The notes beneath the pieces are model-generated. The model was not told the origin of the DNA. It searched no databases and was given only the letters and a program-made list of their open reading frames with translations. Below, one piece after another: positions 21,699-30,649 of a stretch of 41,896 nucleotides of DNA. A program made the translations under genes and the position numbers. Each line of letters starts with the position of its first letter. The stretch's first letter is position 1. The stretch is from Steroidobacteraceae bacterium (GTDB lineage: Bacteria; Pseudomonadota; Gammaproteobacteria; Steroidobacterales; Steroidobacteraceae). The stretch spans positions 1 to 41,896 of the forward strand of contig JAFMJH010000016.1 in NCBI GenBank assembly GCA_017853555.1. Direction: 5' to 3'.

Positions 21699-24600
21699 TC
21701 ATGCGGCGGCGGAGACGCCCTCGAGCCGATCTTCGAGGTCGGCATACAGACCCTGCAGACGCGCCAAGGTCGCCTCGTCCGCCTGCCACATGCCGCGTCC
21801 ATTCGCCTCGATGAGTCGACTCACGGCGTTGCGGGCGGCCGCGGGATTCGCCTCCTCGAGGCGCCGACGCATCACGTCGTCGAGCACGAACGTTTCGGCG
21901 GCGTCTTTGAACACCCACTCGTCCACCGACCCCAAGCTGCCCCAACCGACGAGATGCGTGAAACGATTGCCGATTTCGGCGGCACCGGCATGACCGTGGG
22001 CGAGCATGCCCTCGTACCATTTCGGGTTCAAAAGTTTCGTGCGCGCCTCGACGCGCAGCAGATCAGCCGCGCCGTCGAGTCGCACCTGCCCCGTATAACT
22101 CTCGGCGTAACTCAACGCGACCGACTCACCCTTGCGCTGCGTCGCGGCCAACTGCATCACGCCGCTGTGCCCGTAGTAGTGGCTCATGTCGGTGAGACCG
22201 TATTCCACCGAGTCGATCGCCTGGAACACGTGATCCACCGTGCCGAGCAAGGCACGCAGCGCCTCCGGCGCCGCGGCACCGTTGCGCGCACCGCCGGCGG
22301 TGTAGCCGTTGCGATGCTGATAGAGATCGGCCAACTGTCCGGCATCTTCCCACTGACTTTCTTCGACGACTTCGTCGACGCCGGTGCCGTAGAGCCCGGG
22401 CGCCTGGGTGAACACGCGCGCGGTGGCTTCTTCGAGCGTGCGACCCGCGGCGAGCATTGCATCGGCATTCGCCCGCAGATAGTTGTCGGCATGCGACTCG
22501 TCTGCGGTTGCCGCGCGCCGGAACAAATCGTCGAGCAGATCGAGCGTCATCTGGAACGTGTCGCGGAAGATCGACGAGACGTCGAGCAACACGTCGATGC
22601 GTGGCCGACCGAGCGTCGCGAGCGGCACAAGTTCGTAGCGGTAGATCTTGCCTTGGCCGTCACGCACCGGCTCGGCGCCGACGAGACCCAGCACCACGCC
22701 GAGTCCCTCGCCTTCACTTTTGATGGTGTCCATCGCCCACAAGGCCTGCGCCACCGTGCGCGGCCACTCCCCACCATGTTCGGTGCGGTGCTTGGCGAGC
22801 AACAACTCGGCCATGTGACGTCCGCGCTCGAGCGCCACGTCGGTCGGCAATCGCCACGGATCGATCCCGTGGATGTTGCGACCCGAGGGCAATGCGGCAG
22901 CACCGGAGCGCACCGGATCGGCGCCGTACGCGGGTCGCACATAGCCACCATCCAAAGCATGCATCACCGCATCGAGCTCTTCGCCGCAGCGACCGAGACC
23001 GATCACGATGCCGCGGCCCTCTGCCACATAGGCCGGCAGTTCCGCCGGGGGCGCCACGTCGATCAGCGAAGACCACACGCGCAACGGATCTTCGCGACCC
23101 ATCACCGATCGATCGATCAAGGCATCACGCAACAACGCATGTCGCTCAGCAGCGATACCCTGGGCCGACATCGAACGCGCGAGACCCGGCAGACCGTTGC
23201 GCGGCACGTCCATCGCCGCTTCCACCAGAGCCCGTGCGCGCTGTCGTTCGGGCGGTACGCCGAAAACGTGCAGACCATCGAGGATCAGCCGGTTCTCGAG
23301 ACGCGCCAGATGCTGCGCGAGACGCTCGCGATACGTGGCAAGCGGCTCGTCGGCGAGTTTCGGCAACTCGGGCAAGGCGCCGGTCAGATCGTCGCGGTCG
23401 TCATCGAGGCGCGCGCGCAGCTGCGCGAGCTGCTTGTAAAGCCCCGCGCGCGCATACGGCGGCACGGCGTGACTGACGATCGTCGCGTAACTGCGTCGTC
23501 GCGCGATCGCCGCCTCGGCCGGATTGTTGAGTGGATAAAGATAGAGATGCGGCACGCCGCCCATCAACACGTCGGGCCAGCAATCCGCCGTCAACGCGCC
23601 TTGCAAACCCGGCATCCACTCGACCGTGCCGTGCATGCCGACGTGGATGATCGCGTCGGCTTTCCAACCCTGACGCAGATGCGCGTAGAACGCGGCGTAT
23701 TGGTGATGCGGCGCGAAGCTGCGCTCGAAAAGCAACTTCATCGGATCGCCCGGCGTACCCATTTGCGGCTGCAGACCGATCATGACGTTGCCGTATTCGA
23801 CGGTGTCGAGTCGAATGGCCTCGCGCGATGCGGCGGCGATATCGCCGGGCGCCTGCCCCCACTGTCGTTCGATGCGATCGGCCGCACGGGTCGGCAAGAA
23901 TCGGCGGTAATCGGCCACGGAGAACGCGACGCCGTCCTGCCCCGAGGCGAGGGTCGCCAAACGACGCGTGAGTTCCGCCGACTCGAGCGGCGCGCGACCG
24001 ATCGAATATCCGTCGTCGCGCAGGCGACGCAGCAGACCGGTCACCGAAGCCGGCACATCGAGCAACGCAGCGGTACCCGCTTTACCCAAACCCGCGGGAA
24101 AATCGTAGAGCACGATCGCGATGCGACGCTCGGCCGCCGGTTTGCGACGCAGGCGTATCCAACCTTCGATCTGATCGATCGCGCGGGCGATGCGGTCCGG
24201 TACCGCCGTCAACTCGCCGTCTTTGATGGCGCCGAGTCCGATGGTGCTCGATACGCCATCCATCTCGGGCAAGTCGTACATCACGACGCTTTGCATGGCG
24301 TGTACGCCGCGCGCATGCCATTCGTGTTCTTCCTGCATCAACAACGGTTGCGCGACGACGTAGGGCACGTCGAGTTTGGCGAGCAGATCGGCCGCCGTTT
24401 CGTGGTAGTGACCCGGCTTGGTCGACGAAGCGGGACCGCCGACGATCGAGAACCCCATGGTCGAGACGAAGGCGTCGATGGGCTGCTCGGCGAGCCACTC
24501 CCGCACGGCCACGTGCGCCTCGATTCCGGAGACGAACACGGGCAGCACGGCCATGCCGCGCGCTTCGATACCGTCGATTAGTTCACGCAAATATGCGAGG

Positions 24601-25340
24601 CGCTGCACGACGTGCTTGCGCATGCCGAGTACCGCAACCAAAGGCTGCCCTTTGGTGTAACGGCCCGTCTTGCGCGCCCATTTCAGATACGCGGACGGGT
24701 CGGCAAAGAATTCGCCGCTGCGCGAATCCCAGCAACCCATGGTCGGAATCACGGCAACCGGCGCGACCTGCTGCGCAATCCCGAGCGTGTCGCGCAGAAT
24801 CAACTTCACCATCTGGGTGATGTTGGCGGCATCCGGCTGGTTCCAATACAAGTTCACGCCCAGCCAGGTGCGAAAGCCCGCCAACTTCTGCGGAATCAGC
24901 GGCAGCATCTTGACCGCCACCTTGACGAGTTTGGTGTAGGCGTAGAGCGCATCCTCGTCGCGACCGCGGGTGACGAGCCGCATCAACAGTTTGATTGCCT
25001 TCGGCGCCTCGCCTTTCTTTTCTTTGAAGCGGTGCTCCCCGACTTTGGTGAGTGCCATCACCTCGGGCATGCTCTCGTAGGCGAAGACCGCTGCGGCGCG
25101 CGTGTCGACGAGCTTGGCGGCAAGCCAATCCGCCTGGGCGCGCATATTGATCAAACTGAGGAACACGACATCGGAGCCCGCGAGCGCGGCAGCGAGCTCG
25201 GGATCGTCACGGTCGATGTGCGCGTCGTTGAAGATGCGCAACCGGACCTCGGCGCCCTCGGCGGCGAGCCGTCGCTCGACCTCGCCCCAAACGCCGGCAT
25301 TGAAGCGCTCGATCCCCACCACGAAAGTCAGCGTCGTCAT
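21699..25340 (-). CDS. bchH: Magnesium-chelatase-type subunit H (BchH/ChlH family)
   Basis: Large porphyrin-binding subunit of a class I metal chelatase, 1213 residues, full family length. The N-terminal domain (about 1-170) matches the DUF3479 domain of ChlH/BchH (DVVFLSLINM, FAYESMPEVMALTKVG), which CobN lacks. Then VGMHGTVEWMPGLQGALT, CWPDVLMGGVPHLYLYPLNN, IVSHAVPPYARAGLYKQLAQL and, near the end, RVEARTKLLNPKWYEGMLAHG and EANGRGMWQADEATLARLQG, each BchH-like rather than CobN-like. A GGGGA site precedes the ATG. Divergent from bchI-bchD, so a complete HID enzyme is encoded. The metal and pathway are open: no other bch or cob gene is here. Confidence 0.9.
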   Translation of the reverse strand: MTTLTFVVGIERFNAGVWGEVERRLAAEGAEVRLRIFNDAHIDRDDPELAAALAGSDVVFLSLINMRAQADWLAAKLVDTRAAAVFAYESMPEVMALTKVGEHRFKEKKGEAPKAIKLLMRLVTRGRDEDALYAYTKLVKVAVKMLPLIPQKLAGFRTWLGVNLYWNQPDAANITQMVKLILRDTLGIAQQVAPVAVIPTMGCWDSRSGEFFADPSAYLKWARKTGRYTKGQPLVAVLGMRKHVVQRLAYLRELIDGIEARGMAVLPVFVSGIEAHVAVREWLAEQPIDAFVSTMGFSIVGGPASSTKPGHYHETAADLLAKLDVPYVVAQPLLMQEEHEWHARGVHAMQSVVMYDLPEMDGVSSTIGLGAIKDGELTAVPDRIARAIDQIEGWIRLRRKPAAERRIAIVLYDFPAGLGKAGTAALLDVPASVTGLLRRLRDDGYSIGRAPLESAELTRRLATLASGQDGVAFSVADYRRFLPTRAADRIERQWGQAPGDIAAASREAIRLDTVEYGNVMIGLQPQMGTPGDPMKLLFERSFAPHHQYAAFYAHLRQGWKADAIIHVGMHGTVEWMPGLQGALTADCWPDVLMGGVPHLYLYPLNNPAEAAIARRRSYATIVSHAVPPYARAGLYKQLAQLRARLDDDRDDLTGALPELPKLADEPLATYRERLAQHLARLENRLILDGLHVFGVPPERQRARALVEAAMDVPRNGLPGLARSMSAQGIAAERHALLRDALIDRSVMGREDPLRVWSSLIDVAPPAELPAYVAEGRGIVIGLGRCGEELDAVMHALDGGYVRPAYGADPVRSGAAALPSGRNIHGIDPWRLPTDVALERGRHMAELLLAKHRTEHGGEWPRTVAQALWAMDTIKSEGEGLGVVLGLVGAEPVRDGQGKIYRYELVPLATLGRPRIDVLLDVSSIFRDTFQMTLDLLDDLFRRAATADESHADNYLRANADAMLAAGRTLEEATARVFTQAPGLYGTGVDEVVEESQWEDAGQLADLYQHRNGYTAGGARNGAAAPEALRALLGTVDHVFQAIDSVEYGLTDMSHYYGHSGVMQLAATQRKGESVALSYAESYTGQVRLDGAADLLRVEARTKLLNPKWYEGMLAHGHAGAAEIGNRFTHLVGWGSLGSVDEWVFKDAAETFVLDDVMRRRLEEANPAAARNAVSRLIEANGRGMWQADEATLARLQGLYADLEDRLEGVSAAA

Positions 25341-25505
25341 GCAAATCCCCTTCCCGCGCCAATGGATACGGGAGTAATTCCGGGTTGACAGTTAGCCGCG
25401 TCTTGATATGTTGACACATGGTACGCAGGGTGTGAGCGGTACCGCAACACGACGCTTTCGCAGCACGGAACTTGCCTCGAAAGTCGCTGACAGGAGCCCG
25501 GTTCC
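25341..25505. promoter_or_regulatory. bchH/bchI divergent control region with overlapping -35 boxes
   Basis: Plus strand: TTGACA (25385-25390), 16 bp, TATGTT (25407-25412), towards bchI. Minus strand: CTGTCA (25391-25386), 17 bp, TATCCA (25368-25363), towards bchH. The two -35 boxes are the same 7 bp read in opposite directions. GTTGACA occurs twice (25384-25390 and 25410-25416), 26 bp apart, the second copy over the plus -10. A 10-bp palindrome GCGGTACCGC lies at 25436-25445 in the roughly 87-nt bchI leader. I found no B12-box or clear riboswitch fold. Confidence 0.4.
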
Positions 25506-26516
25506 TTGCCCAATTTTCCGTTCACGGCCATCGTCGGCCAGGAAGACCTCAAGACCTCCGTACTGCTTGCCGTCATCGACCCCGCCATCGGTGGCGTGCT
25601 GGTCACCGGCCACCGCGGCACCGCCAAGAGCACTGCCGTTCGCGCGCTCGCGGAACTGCTGCCCGAGATGAAGGTGGTCGCCGGTTGCCCCTACAACTGC
25701 GACCCCGTACGACCGGCCGCCGAGTGCCCGCACTGCAGCACCGGCAAACCTCGCAAGGCGCGCACGCGCAGCGTACCGGTGATCGACCTGCCGCTCGGCG
25801 CCACCGAAGATCGCGTGGTGGGCTCGGTCGACATCGAACGCGCGCTCGTCGACGGCGTGCAAGCGTTCTCGCCCGGCCTGCTCGCGAGCGCGAATCGCGG
25901 CTTCCTCTACATCGACGAAGTGAATCTGCTCGAAGACCATCTCGTCGATCTGTTGCTCGACGTCGCCGCGAGCGGCGTGAACGTGGTCGAACGCGAAGGC
26001 TTGAGCGTGCGCCACCCGGCGCGCTTCGTGCTCGTCGGGTCCGGCAACCCCGAAGAAGGTGATCTGCGTCCGCAGCTGCTCGATCGTTTCGGTCTGCACG
26101 CGCGCATCCGCACGCTGCACGACGTCGATGCGCGCGTCGAGATCGTGCGTCGCCGCCTCGCCTTCGAAAGCGATCCGGTCGCGTTCGCCGCACAATACGC
26201 ACGCGAGCAAGGGAAGTTGCGCAAGCGTCTGGCCACGGCGATCGCGCGACGCGAACAAGTCGCGCTCGGTGACGATGCGTTGCAACTGGCGGCGCAGCTC
26301 TGCGATCGACTCGGGATCGACGGCCATCGCGGCGAACTCGCACTCTCGCGCGCAGCAGTGGCGCTCGCCGCATACGACGGCGTCAAAAAAGCGACTGCCG
26401 CCCAGGTGGCCGCCGTTGCACCGCTCGCGCTCGCGCATCGCCTGCGCAAAGATCCGCTCGAGCCGGCGGCCGACGACGAACGCGTCAAACGCGTACTCGC
26501 CGAAGCACTCGCTTAA
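25506..26516 (+). CDS. bchI: Magnesium-chelatase-type ATPase subunit I
   Basis: AAA+ motor subunit of the chelatase, 336 residues. FPFTAIVGQEDLKTSVLLAV, Walker A GHRGTAKST (35-43), Walker B FLYIDEVNLLEDH (133-145), VRHPARFVLVGSGNPEEGDL and RPQLLDRFGL with sensor/arginine-finger residues are intact. Two departures from photosynthetic BchI, from memory of that family: Ala in place of the last Walker A Gly (GTAKS), and a four-Cys cluster CPYNCDP/CPHC at Cys61, 65, 74 and 77. The start is TTG at 25506 with AGGAG 9 nt upstream. bchD follows after 10 bp. Confidence 0.92.
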   Translation: MPNFPFTAIVGQEDLKTSVLLAVIDPAIGGVLVTGHRGTAKSTAVRALAELLPEMKVVAGCPYNCDPVRPAAECPHCSTGKPRKARTRSVPVIDLPLGATEDRVVGSVDIERALVDGVQAFSPGLLASANRGFLYIDEVNLLEDHLVDLLLDVAASGVNVVEREGLSVRHPARFVLVGSGNPEEGDLRPQLLDRFGLHARIRTLHDVDARVEIVRRRLAFESDPVAFAAQYAREQGKLRKRLATAIARREQVALGDDALQLAAQLCDRLGIDGHRGELALSRAAVALAAYDGVKKATAAQVAAVAPLALAHRLRKDPLEPAADDERVKRVLAEALA

Positions 26517-26526
26517 AGGGTCTCGC

Positions 26527-28305
26527 ATGCAGCTACACGCGCTGCCGCTGCCCGGGCTCGTCGCACTCGATACGCCGCGTCTGGCACTGATGTTGCTCGC
26601 GGTCGAGCCGCGCTTGCGCGGCGCCGTATTCGCCGGGCCTGCCGGCAGCGGCAAAAGCGCGCTGCTGCGCGGACTGCGCGAATTGCTGCCGGACGACCCC
26701 TATGCGGAGCTCCCCGCCGGCAGTGACGAAGAAGCCTTGCTCGGCGGCCTCGACGTCGAAGCGACGCTGCGCCGCGGCGCGCGCGTGTTGCGCTCCGGCC
26801 TGCTCGGGCGCGCGCACGGCGGGACGCTGCTCGTCGAGGCGTGCAACTTGCTGCCCGAAGGCACGGCGAACCTCTTGCTCGGCGCACTCGACGAAGGTGA
26901 GGTGCGACTCGAGCGCGACGGCCTCAGCACGCGCGTACCTACCCGGTTCCGGTTTTTGGGCAGCTTCGATCCGGCCGAAGGCGCACCGCGCGCGCACTTG
27001 CTCGATCGAGTCGCGCTCATCGTCGTGATGCCGCAACTCGGTCAGGCTGCCGCACGCGCGGAAATCGTCCGTCGACATTTCGTACCGACCACCGAACTTT
27101 GGGCTGACGAACTCGATACCTTGCGCGGTCTCGTCGGCATCGCGCGCGAGCATCTTGCCGAGGTCACGCTCGCCGATCGACAGCGCGAGGAGTTGATCAC
27201 GACCGCCGTGTCGCTCGGCGTGCAAGGCCATCGCGCCGATCTGTTCGCGACGCTCACCGCACGCGCGAGCGCCGCACTCGCGCTTCGCGACCACGTCGAG
27301 CGCGAAGATCTGGAACTGGCGATCCGACTCGTCTTGCTGCCGCGCGCCACGCGCAAACCCGCACCGCCCGAAGAGACTCAACCGCAACAGCAGCCCTCGC
27401 CCGCGCCGTCGAATGAGACCGAGCAGCCCGATGACGGCCTGCCGCACGAAGAAGAGCTCGAACTCGACGACGCGGTGCTCGACGCGTTGAGCGCGGAACT
27501 GCCCGCCATCCTCGACGCCTTGCCGTTCGCCGCCGCACGCCGCGGTCGCAGCGGCTCGCGCGGGCAGACCGAGGGCAAGCGCGGCCGACATGTCGCAAGC
27601 GTCCCGGGCGGCGTGCGCGATGGACGCGTTGACGTGATCGCCACCTTGCGTGCTGCGGCGCGTTGGCAACGCCTGCGACCACGCTCGCAACGCCGCGTCG
27701 TCTTGCGCGCCGAGGACCTGCGCCTCAAACGCTATCGCAGCAAAGCGGGCGCGCTGTTTTTGTTTGCCGTCGATGCGAGCGGCAGCATGGCGCTCAATCG
27801 GATGCGACAAGCCAAAGGCGCGGTGCACGCGCTGCTCGAGCAGGCTTACGTGAATCGCGATCGCGTCGCACTGCTCTCGTTCCGCGGCCGGACCTCGGAA
27901 CTGCTGCTGCCGCCGACCAACAGCGTGGAATTGCTGCGCCGTGCGGTGGATCAGCTGCCGACCGGTGGCGGCACGCCGCTGGCGGCGACACTCGTGCACG
28001 CCATGGAGATGGCCGCGCAGGCGCGGCGTCGCGGCTTTGCCAACGTCGTGCTCGTACTGCTCACCGATGCGCGCGCCAACGTCGGCGTGCGCGCCGAACG
28101 CGCCGGCGTCGACGAAGAGCTACGTCAGCTCGCGCTCGGCTGCGCCCAAACGGGGCTGCGCTCGCTCGTGATCGACACCCAAAGAAATTTCCTGAGCCAG
28201 GGCAGCGCCCAGAAACTCGCCCAGTGGCTGGGCGGTAACTATCTTTATCTGCCGGGCGCAAACGGACGCGCGATCGCCTCGGCCGCGCGCGACGCCGCGC
28301 TGTAG
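26527..28305 (+). CDS. bchD: Magnesium-chelatase-type subunit D (AAA-like plus VWA domain)
   Basis: Platform subunit linking the I-ring to H; 592 residues. An N-terminal AAA domain has an intact Walker A GPAGSGKS (37-44) but a degraded Walker B (LLVEACNLL). A Pro/Gln and acidic linker (about 280-340) follows, then a basic Arg/Gly stretch, VDVIATLRAAARWQRLR, and a C-terminal VWA domain with the metal-ion-dependent adhesion site DASGSM (Asp416, Ser418, Ser420), LPTGGGTPLAATL and VLLTDARANVG. ATG 26527 has an AAGGG site. It ends 4 bp from the convergent TonB receptor gene. Confidence 0.92.
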   Translation: MQLHALPLPGLVALDTPRLALMLLAVEPRLRGAVFAGPAGSGKSALLRGLRELLPDDPYAELPAGSDEEALLGGLDVEATLRRGARVLRSGLLGRAHGGTLLVEACNLLPEGTANLLLGALDEGEVRLERDGLSTRVPTRFRFLGSFDPAEGAPRAHLLDRVALIVVMPQLGQAAARAEIVRRHFVPTTELWADELDTLRGLVGIAREHLAEVTLADRQREELITTAVSLGVQGHRADLFATLTARASAALALRDHVEREDLELAIRLVLLPRATRKPAPPEETQPQQQPSPAPSNETEQPDDGLPHEEELELDDAVLDALSAELPAILDALPFAAARRGRSGSRGQTEGKRGRHVASVPGGVRDGRVDVIATLRAAARWQRLRPRSQRRVVLRAEDLRLKRYRSKAGALFLFAVDASGSMALNRMRQAKGAVHALLEQAYVNRDRVALLSFRGRTSELLLPPTNSVELLRRAVDQLPTGGGTPLAATLVHAMEMAAQARRRGFANVVLVLLTDARANVGVRAERAGVDEELRQLALGCAQTGLRSLVIDTQRNFLSQGSAQKLAQWLGGNYLYLPGANGRAIASAARDAAL

Positions 28306-28309
28306 AACG

Positions 28310-30649
28310 TCAGAAGAACAACTTGCGGACGTTGAGTCGCACGCTGCGACCGGCCGGATCGAGCAAGTCGGCCTGGAAGTTGGTCGGCGTCGAGCCATCG
28401 GCCGCACGCACGCGCGGTCGCGCATCGAACAGATTGTTGAGCTGCAGACTCAGTCGCGTCGCACGCAAGGCCGGCATGCTGCGCGCAAAGGGTTGCAAGC
28501 CGAGGTCGGCAAACACGCGCACGCTGACGGTCGTCAATGCGCCGAAGCGCAGATCCGAACGCAACGCATTGCCGCGAATGCCGGTTGCTTCACGCCACTG
28601 TGCCGTGAATCGCGCAGTGATACCGTTGCGCGTCAGCGCCATCTGACCCTCGACTTCGTTCTGCGGCTGACCGAAGGACTCGGACAGACTCGCGCCGTTC
28701 AACAAATCGAGTCGCGCCAGCCCCGAGGCGAGTCTGGCCTCGTCATGCAGTCGCAGCGTGTGGTTCAAAGAAAACTGCACGGTCCCGCGCCGCGCGAAGC
28801 CCAGCATGCGCTCGCGCATCTCGGGCGTGAAATTGGGACGACCTGCGCCGCCACCGCCGCCACCGCCGCCTGCGCCGCCGCCCCGCGCGCCGGAGTCGCC
28901 ACGCTCACCGCGCTCTCCGCGCCCGAAGCTCGGGGTCTCGGGCTGCGGTCCCCAGGGCAGACTCAGATTGAATCCCCAGCGCAATTCCGCGCGATCGCGC
29001 AGCGCGAGATTGATCGGCCGCGCATCGATCGAGCGCAACCGACCGTCGGCGTCGCGCACGAACCGATCGGCAAACGCCGTCTGCGCGGCCACCGTCGCAA
29101 TGGGCAGCGTGGTCGGCAGGTCACGCGCATCGGTGCGCACGTAGTTCGCGTTGACCGAAAAATCCATGCTTTCGAACGGCTGTGCCGAGAAACCCAACTT
29201 GCGCACGTCGCGACGTCCGGCACCGAGATTCGGATCACCCCCGTCGATGCGCGTGACGATCACCGTTTCACCGCGCACGAAATCGAACACGCGCACGCCG
29301 GGCGTCGGTATGGCAGGGTCACCGAGTTGCTGCATGGTCGGCGCGACATCATCGCGTGCGACCGACGCGATGAATCGCCATTGCCGCGTCGGGCTCCAGG
29401 TCAATCCCGCCTGCTCGCTGCGCAAGCTGCCGAAATCCGCCAGATCCTGCAAACCGAGCGTGAAGTTCGTCGACAACGCCCCCACCGCCGAAGCCCGTGC
29501 GGCCAAAGGTACATCCATGCTCACTTGCCCATCGATCGAGCGTCGCGACAGATCGGTGGCACGCACGATCGTGCCGCGCGAAGAACGACTCTCGACGTCG
29601 CGATTCCCGAGTGCAAATTTTGCCGTCAGCGTCGCTGCGCCTGCCGGCACGTCGAGTGGCGACCCGGACGCGACGAACGTCGCCTCCGCCGATTGCAGCC
29701 GCGAGCGCGCCGACCCGGGCGACTCGCCGCTCGTTTCGGCGGCCGAGGTCGTCCGTTCGGCGTTGCCCGTCAACGACCAGCGCCAACCGTGCTGCGCCGC
29801 GTTGTAGATGGCACCGAGGCGCGCCACTTTCGACTCGTCGTCGCGACGCGCCGGCCGTCCAGCCACGAGACCGAGCCCCGCGACGTTGCGCGTCTCGTCG
29901 AAACTCGCATTCACCGTCGCCGACTGCCCGGCGTCGAAGCCGCGCGTCATCACGCCATTCAGAGAATATTGGTTCGTACCCGGCAACAGAGTGCGCAGTG
30001 CCGCATCGGGCGCCACCGCGCCGTTCGCGCCCAATACCTCGCGCTCGCTCTCGATGAGCGCCTCGTCGTGGCGTGCCTTGAAGGCCAACTGCGTCCGATC
30101 GGTCGGCATGATGCGCAACGCGTTCGAATCGAGATCCACGCTGCGTCGACCGCCGGCCGTCGTCACGCGCTCGCCGAGCTCGGCATTGATCGCACGGAAT
30201 CGCGGCCGCAACACGAAGTTGATCACGCGCTGATCGGCGCGATATCCATATTTGACCGACAGCTCTTCGGGGAACACGTCGAGACGCATGATCGCCTCGG
30301 GCGGCAGGTCCCGAACCTCCGCGAATCCGGAAACTCGGGCGCCGTTGATCAACACCACCGGCGGCCCATCGCCACGACTGCTTTGAATTTGCGGACCGAG
30401 CGCCTGCAGAAGTTCGGCGACCGAGCCCGCACCGTAACTGGCGATCTGTGCGGCATTCAGACGCACATCCGGCGCGACGTCACCGATCACGCCACCCACC
30501 TCGCGCCGACTGCTGATCACCACCGTCTCGAGCGCCTCGGCCGCAGGCGCTTTGGCATCGGCTGCCCGTGCCGCCACCGGCACCACGACCATCATCGCCG
30601 CAGCAACCAAAACCAGACGGGAAAGCGAAGACGGGATGCCCGATCTCAC
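28310..30649 (-). CDS. TonB-dependent outer-membrane receptor
   Basis: Active outer-membrane importer, 779 residues with the GTG start at 30647-30649 (GGAG 8 nt upstream). Signal peptide about 1-29 with an ARA-ADA cleavage site, TonB-box-like ETVVISS at 41-47, plug domain (about 55-165: SVAELLQALGPQIQ, VVLINGARVSGFAEVRDLPP, RVINFVLRPRF), then a beta-barrel ending in the C-terminal Phe typical of Omp proteins. A Gly-rich, collagen-like insertion lies at about 576-603. The substrate is not evident. It resembles a receptor group common in sphingomonads and related bacteria. Its start overlaps the stop of the 49-codon gene upstream (GTGA). Confidence 0.88.
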   Translation of the reverse strand: MRSGIPSSLSRLVLVAAAMMVVVPVAARAADAKAPAAEALETVVISSRREVGGVIGDVAPDVRLNAAQIASYGAGSVAELLQALGPQIQSSRGDGPPVVLINGARVSGFAEVRDLPPEAIMRLDVFPEELSVKYGYRADQRVINFVLRPRFRAINAELGERVTTAGGRRSVDLDSNALRIMPTDRTQLAFKARHDEALIESEREVLGANGAVAPDAALRTLLPGTNQYSLNGVMTRGFDAGQSATVNASFDETRNVAGLGLVAGRPARRDDESKVARLGAIYNAAQHGWRWSLTGNAERTTSAAETSGESPGSARSRLQSAEATFVASGSPLDVPAGAATLTAKFALGNRDVESRSSRGTIVRATDLSRRSIDGQVSMDVPLAARASAVGALSTNFTLGLQDLADFGSLRSEQAGLTWSPTRQWRFIASVARDDVAPTMQQLGDPAIPTPGVRVFDFVRGETVIVTRIDGGDPNLGAGRRDVRKLGFSAQPFESMDFSVNANYVRTDARDLPTTLPIATVAAQTAFADRFVRDADGRLRSIDARPINLALRDRAELRWGFNLSLPWGPQPETPSFGRGERGERGDSGARGGGAGGGGGGGGAGRPNFTPEMRERMLGFARRGTVQFSLNHTLRLHDEARLASGLARLDLLNGASLSESFGQPQNEVEGQMALTRNGITARFTAQWREATGIRGNALRSDLRFGALTTVSVRVFADLGLQPFARSMPALRATRLSLQLNNLFDARPRVRAADGSTPTNFQADLLDPAGRSVRLNVRKLFF

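Follow-up and report, generated by a model that had tools for sequence, protein, structure and literature searches.

The described systems closest to the one examined here are those of phototrophic Anaerolineae (Ca. Roseilinea, Aggregatilineales), for which passages of the literature list bchX, bchY, bchZ, bchF, bchG, bchP, bchI, bchD and a 'bchH-like' gene as present and report bchL, bchN, bchB, bchM, bchE, acsF and the light-dependent protochlorophyllide oxidoreductase (LPOR) as absent. A truncated pathway of this kind is known but unexplained in that group. In canonical purple bacteria the large Mg-chelatase subunit BchH is encoded in a bchFNBHLM operon; passages of published accounts give three homologues of H for most green sulfur bacteria, and for Chloroflexus two genes like bchH and one like bchS/T. 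A homologous large subunit is also found in HmuS (PDB 9d26), a heme dechelatase that by its name works in the opposite direction, on a finished metallated tetrapyrrole. Here we describe a bchH, bchI and bchD locus (HID) in a stretch of 41,896 nucleotides, hereafter the window, that constitutes contig JAFMJH010000016.1 of a Steroidobacteraceae bacterium (GCA_017853555.1). It belongs to a proteobacterial genus that is a new case of such truncation: the enzymes kept act on chlorophyllide a or later, those lost act earlier, and the window's H subunit is of foreign origin.

The window is contig C50 of its own genome (G000; 2.48 Mb, 93.8% complete, 74 contigs); G, C and L numbers are our handles for genomes, contigs and loci. 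The three chelatase genes are as follows.

21699..25340, minus strand: bchH, predicted BchS/BchT-type Mg-chelatase large subunit, 1213 amino acids
25506..26516, plus strand: bchI, AAA+ ATPase subunit, 336 amino acids, TTG start
26527..28305, plus strand: bchD, AAA+/VWA subunit, 592 amino acids, ATG start (best reading)

All three are full length, with bchH divergent from bchI and bchD. The ATG at 26527 appears to be the best start for bchD, as a longer open reading frame from a GTG at 26059 would overlap bchI. Each product exceeds its NCBIfam equivalog cut-off, with BchH at 1204 bits against TIGR02025 (cut-off 829), BchI at 496 bits against TIGR02030 (467) and BchD at 598 bits against TIGR02031 (500). 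CobN models also match H, all under their cut-offs (TIGR02257, 539.5 bits against 822), and no second PF02514 protein was found in the genome, which therefore holds no separate CobN. H aligns with the ChlH of solved structure 4zhj at 673 bits, and its residues E574 and E609 are the conserved alignment partners of what we take to be the ChlH active-site glutamates, E625 and E660. In family, subunits and conserved catalytic glutamates the system is like canonical purple BchHID; it differs in the clade of its H, in lying outside the photosynthesis cluster and in being without bchM, acsF and the dark-operative protochlorophyllide oxidoreductase (DPOR). The initial annotation, which described a complete divergent locus of Mg-chelatase rather than CobN type, is confirmed by the equivalog cut-offs and the full-length frames. 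Its remark that no other tetrapyrrole genes lie around also holds among the called window genes, whose names were read from translations, with the three nearest neighbours alone scanned against models.

Placed in a tree of H subunits, the window's protein falls well away from purple BchH. The tree (LG+G4, no mixture) resolves into two clades, A and B, each with ultrafast bootstrap (UFBoot) and Shimodaira–Hasegawa-like approximate likelihood ratio (SH-aLRT) values of 100/100. Clade A comprises purple BchH and single H copies from the Chlorobiaceae genome G087 and from G081, along with two from the Chloroflexales genome G090. In clade B are the H of our genus and all other BchH-type copies from those groups that entered the tree (two of the three G087 copies among them). 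Three Thermochlorobacter/Chloroherpeton-type genomes (G086, G088, G089) are represented there by their sole PF02514 protein, and two genomes of Roseilinea type (G084, G085) by their BchH-type protein, the one other PF02514 protein of each being CobN-like. The H of the phototrophic Anaerolineae is thus likewise of clade B, as presumably are BchS and BchT of Chlorobaculum, going by the literature. In green sulfur bacteria these paralogs occur along with DPOR-type genes and an H of clade A, whereas in the window's genome the clade B type is on its own. Constraining the genus H with purple BchH cost 470 log-likelihood units (approximately unbiased (AU) test, p 3e-50), the tested group having been picked after earlier trees had been inspected. 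Nine rows were left out of the final tree (the N and C pieces of G080, the C part of G011, L254, G012, G009, L163, L153 and the purple G056). A catalytic loop separates the clades as well, reading GMHGxxEWMPG[LV] in all 24 rows of clade B and GTHGxxEFMPGK in all 10 of clade A; GTHG is also present in CobN and archaeal-type rows. The genus H is sister, at 58% identity, to that of two Chloroflexota bins that have a clade A copy as well; both types were therefore probably present in the donor group. The window's H is in this way shown to group as a foreign subunit of predicted BchS/BchT type, nearest to Chloroflexota; that it was acquired from a Chloroflexota-like donor is part of our best explanation and shares its tentative standing.

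Several other occurrences of H are of note. Two gammaproteobacterial loci, L167:6785-13798 (genome G064, isolate DLM2.Bin61) and L160:70-4836 (a Wenzhouxiangella bin), combine a clade B H with I/D-type genes; neither G064, which is 100% complete, nor the Wenzhouxiangella bin gave a match to PF00148, the family of BchY and BchZ. These are apparently Mg-chelatases in non-phototrophs, close to what the initial annotation had suspected for the window. A record titled Klebsiella pneumoniae (L136) is by its H, at 75% identity, a member of our genus, and its title is unfitting. In a record titled Gloeomargarita (L149), the H is most like Chloroflexota ones among the matches listed, and the sequence may be misbinned.

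The window's organism is a phototroph. Contig C74 of its genome carries pufL and pufM, both over cut-off, within a purple-type photosynthesis cluster in which BchG, BchF, PuhA, BchZ, BchY, BchX, BchC and BchP also pass their models, as do PUCC, PpsR, PuhB, PuhC, PuhE, PufC, CrtD and a CrtI-family desaturase. From translations, sub-cut-off matches and synteny we further read lhaA, aerR, bchO, crtB, crtC, crtE, crtF, dxs and ispH as probable members. The cluster is functionally constrained: the ratio of nonsynonymous to synonymous substitution rates (dN/dS) for bchX, bchY and bchZ lies at 0.01-0.10 across three pairs of species, and two of these pairs contain a species without H (G004, G013), showing purifying selection on the retained genes. 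The same holds for the chelatase, with dN/dS against G019 of 0.10 for H, 0.12 for I and 0.23 for D (the last over 265 codons). An aerobic anoxygenic lifestyle belongs to the same best explanation and is put forward with equal reserve. Several metagenome-assembled genomes (MAGs) of the genus have record titles pointing to open water (Erken; 'surface' and 'offshore' samples). In passages of a lake study (PMC10976687), UBA964, a Steroidobacterales phototroph, is among the main contributors to a late-summer peak, and the selected predictors of community composition include Chl-a and cyanobacterial abundance; it is our guess that UBA964 is the genus of the window's genome.

What the cluster lacks is the early part of the pathway. 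Missing from it are bchN, bchB, bchH, bchL, bchM, bchI, bchD and acsF, and in the genome as a whole we found no AcsF and no BchM, BchL or LPOR over cut-off (BchE was not searched for). The PF00148 model picks out just bchY and bchZ, and hence neither bchN nor bchB. A complete bacteriochlorophyll a pathway, in the sense of bchM together with DPOR or LPOR in the genome, is not present. We surveyed 24 genomes of the genus, 21 of which have PF00148 matches over cut-off; the exceptions are G016 and G022, with neither H nor bchY/Z, and G010, with H. A single genome, G011, has bchN/bchB-type PF00148 matches, and it is also the only one of the 24 with LPOR, AcsF or BchM over cut-off. BchL passes in none of the 24, its G011 copy being in two pieces (275 and 228 bits) against a BchX level elsewhere of at most about 180. 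Two weak sub-cut-off PF00148 pieces were seen in G019 and G021. In total, 20 of the 21 bchY/Z-bearing genomes are without bchN/B, bchM, acsF and LPOR (BchE again not searched for), 12 of these being at least 90% complete and at most 5% contaminated. Truncation of the known route from protoporphyrin IX to chlorophyllide a is thus well supported in the genus. Three bchY/Z-bearing genus mates furthermore have no H-family match, namely G004 (98% complete), G013 (95%) and G007 (87%), and the first two keep pufL and pufM.

Like the phototrophic Anaerolineae, the window's genome has bchXYZ and a bchH-like gene and is without bchL, bchN, bchB, bchM, acsF and LPOR (bchE not having been searched for), and in four Anaerolineae-type genomes (G082-G085) PF00148 likewise finds two genes only. 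The genus differs from them in phylum, in having a purple-type cluster, in an H only 44-46% identical to theirs, and in including an intact-cluster close relative and three bchY/Z-bearing mates without H. In the open PMC literature we found no report of this genus as being without these genes and no chlorophyll-scavenging proposal for it.

The intact relative, G011, makes the loss directly visible. Its gene order is bchF-bchN-bchB-bchH-bchL on one contig and bchL(part)-bchM-lhaA-puhABC-acsF-puhE on a second, and its bchI-bchD adjoin bchO. In all eight truncated genomes that cover both genes (G000, G001, G006, G009, G013, G015, G019, G020), bchF and lhaA are at most 89 bases apart; the corresponding G011 figure was not used, as the match there is by our reading to another PUCC-family gene. 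The gap between puhC and puhE is at most 80 bases in nine of nine truncated genomes (those eight and G017), compared with 1160 in G011, where acsF lies between. The remaining reference genes that were found keep the same order in the truncated clusters and G011, so that the lost genes are precisely absent from an otherwise syntenic cluster. The chlorophyllide oxidoreductase (COR) genes of the window's genome are 89% (bchX), 77% (bchY) and 84% (bchZ) identical to G011, compared with 83-91, 80-82 and 86-89% to five truncated species. For bchX the G011 value lies in the truncated-species range, and for bchY and bchZ it lies 2-3 points under the lower end, a smaller gap than that of pufM and puhA. 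The genus COR accordingly shows no marked divergence from that of the DPOR-bearing G011.

These results recast the alternatives raised by the initial annotation. Its first suggestion, a phototroph with a dispersed cluster, stands in so far as pufLM and bchXYZ are on C74, as the genome search it proposed brought out, but not as plain displacement, since that search found no bchN/B, BchL or AcsF. A photosynthesis cluster complete except for bchHID, which it held would reduce the case to a displaced locus, was not what we found: bchNBLM and acsF are missing too, here and in the bchY/Z genomes other than G011. The suggested new biology survives in the truncated pathway and not in a change of metal. 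As the H is a BchS/T-type xenolog, it is not a displaced purple bchH.

The divergent promoter region carries two candidate regulatory features.

25399..25416, plus strand: putative PpsR/CrtJ-type operator with one mismatch (CGT-N12-ACA)
25385..25412, plus strand: possible sigma-70 promoter towards bchI (TTGACA, 16 bases, TATGTT), found by eye, its -10 overlapping the operator

With TGT-N12-ACA as what we take to be the PpsR/CrtJ operator form, 13 of 16 distinct genomes of the genus have an exact copy in the bchH-bchI intergenic region. This count excludes L015, whose locus has no I, and L142, which is not divergent. Shuffled regions gave a mean of 0.36 and a maximum of 4, figures that overstate independence because the intergenic regions are related sequences. 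The same form is present in the window genome's own cluster near ppsR, bchC and crtC/crtE, and the ppsR gene itself lies within that cluster. The chelatase genes thus probably belong to the photosynthesis regulon, in which PpsR would regulate HID.

Our best explanation, which we hold tentatively and at a little short of an even chance, is that a PpsR-controlled chelatase of BchS/T type serves the salvage of imported chlorophyll a products in a phototroph that has no de novo route to chlorophyllide. The cell would import chlorophyllide a and pheophorbide a from algae or cyanobacteria, HID would re-insert Mg into the pheophorbide a, and BchF, BchXYZ, BchC, BchG and BchP would then convert the products to bacteriochlorophyll a; we infer both the chlorin import and the use of pheophorbide as a substrate. 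Species with bchY/Z and without H have no start from protoporphyrin by known enzymes, and could nevertheless use a chlorophyllide that already contains Mg. Since de novo synthesis needs Mg insertion and a supply of chlorophyllide does not, import, with HID for the Mg-free part, is the simplest model consistent with both kinds of species. A review (PMC9066304) describes, in a passage on leaf extract, the esterification of exogenous chlorophyllide to chlorophyll but not of pheophorbide to pheophytin, from which scavenged pheophorbide would need Mg before it could be esterified.

Several observations weigh against salvage. Neither an importer nor a dephytylase was identified, PUCC-family genes having been noted in passing, and the titled genus loci all derive from MAGs. 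The exact operator is absent from the window's genome and from G019, which have one mismatch each, and G020 is without any such site. A clade B H stands beside a clade A H in those Chloroflexota and Chlorobiota genomes that have DPOR-type genes, so clade B alone does not mean salvage. According to passages of PMC3931815, BchSID of Chlorobaculum tepidum expressed in E. coli made Mg-protoporphyrin IX and did not chelate the monomethyl ester; this type is hence not barred from protoporphyrin, and for it both an exclusive use of pheophorbide and the acceptance of a methyl-esterified chlorin are at most conjectural. This capability also speaks for the rival that we rank second and consider rather unlikely, in which bacteriochlorophyll a is made de novo by enzymes that are unknown or have several functions (such as a BchXYZ that reduces both rings) and HID makes Mg-protoporphyrin IX. 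Such enzymes are what the authors who described Roseilinea and relatives sharing these gaps invoke, in passages that also report autofluorescence consistent with bacteriochlorophyll a (PMC8446752, PMC5826079, PMC7842958). The slightly lower likeness of our own BchY and BchZ to G011 than to truncated species would fit too. A bifunctional COR is however not borne out, the genus enzyme having no marked extra divergence; substitutes would be needed for the methyltransferase, the reductase and, if BchE is absent too, the cyclase; and a review stresses, in the passages concerned, a single pathway from Mg-protoporphyrin IX to chlorophyllide a (PMC5972617). It is because of the COR and of the misfit with the three bchY/Z-bearing species without H that we place de novo synthesis behind salvage.

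The remaining rivals are progressively less probable. Type 2 reaction centres require bacteriopheophytin, and HID might act wholly or partly as a dechelatase that provides it or that handles imported metallochlorins. HmuS is among the solved relatives of the window's H (334 bits), but its name points to heme as the substrate, and the window's H exceeds the BchH cut-off. In G052, which belongs to the same order and has four PF00148 genes, the only PF02514 gene is of clade A, which indicates that a clade B chelatase is no general need, and pufL and pufM persist in G004 and G013 without any H; we regard dechelation as improbable. A plain relocation of H, I and D from an ordinary purple cluster would explain a cluster without bchHID and the presence of these genes on another contig, but this is very improbable given the AU result and the concurrent absence of bchNBLM and acsF; under LG+G4, the tree and AU test refute displacement for H, a conclusion that applies to H alone and not to I and D. 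We give still less weight to the gaps being an artefact of incomplete MAGs. The window's genome is indeed incomplete and in 74 contigs, yet the same genes are missing in 20 of 21 genomes, 12 of them of the quality given above, and bchF adjoins lhaA inside contigs. Least probable of all is a chelatase for cobalt or another metal in a non-phototroph, as the initial annotation had considered. The lack of a separate CobN and the sub-cut-off CobN matches would allow it, but the organism carries a photosynthesis cluster, its H, I and D exceed the Mg-chelatase cut-offs, and the genus conserves a PpsR-type operator; the cobalt proposal is thus not supported (cobalamin genes were not searched for).

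Taken further, salvage would make this genus of lake phototrophs a pigment scavenger living on the remains of algal and cyanobacterial chlorophyll a. Its Mg-chelatase would be dedicated to pheophorbide; this activity would be new and might be what the BchS/BchT-type clade is for. We regard this wider proposal as possible but doubtful. If true, the explanation would also cover Roseilinea and Thermochlorobacter-type genomes, would account for bacteriochlorophyll a synthesis in the gapped Anaerolineae, and would give BchS/BchT-type H subunits a distinct job. A light-harvesting pigment would then be traded in lakes, with photoheterotrophs depending on algal chlorophyll. The genus supplies the formerly missing test set of a close relative with the cluster intact, HID-bearing species and others that have no H. 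Should scavenging prove wrong, a proteobacterial lineage that keeps bchXYZ and pufLM but lacks bchM, acsF and the two known protochlorophyllide reductases would still imply an unknown route to chlorophyllide.

Neighbouring genes were also considered as partners. Next to bchD, a 761-amino-acid protein (28310-30595, minus strand, its stop 4 bases past the bchD end) has by eye the look of an outer-membrane receptor. At E 0.001 it matches neither Pfam nor NCBIfam families; it is outside the neighbour groups shared by related loci, and was rejected as a TonB-receptor partner. In truncated clusters an insertion between crtB and crtD holds an ATP-grasp gene, a P450 and an unidentified gene (L039:13512-16848 on C74 in the window's genome); the P450 is present in 11 of 11 truncated clusters covering the site and absent there in G011. 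As its best-scoring solved match is LUTEIN DEFICIENT 5, a carotenoid hydroxylase, a function in carotenoid rather than chlorin metabolism is the likelier one, and the insertion was set aside as a source of chlorin genes. DUF169 (PF02596) lies by H in G019 and G017, by a PUCC-like gene in G021, and by COR genes in G080 and the Roseilinea-type G084. Being present in 3 of 24 genus genomes and absent from the window's, it is no general, let alone obligate, partner. Copies occur in two phyla (L129:5953-6672, L139:6626-7369, L317:369-1112, L322:1678-2451 and G084:C16:102476-103093), with identities to the L129 copy of 57% (G084), 72% (G080) and 83% (G021). Lastly, Roseilinea-type and Chloroflexota loci (L148:7802-9964 and L142:5967-8179) have a class I methyltransferase and a PUCC-like transporter gene, recognised by eye and in a shared group, between bchD and the clade B bchH, and these are candidates for chlorin handling.

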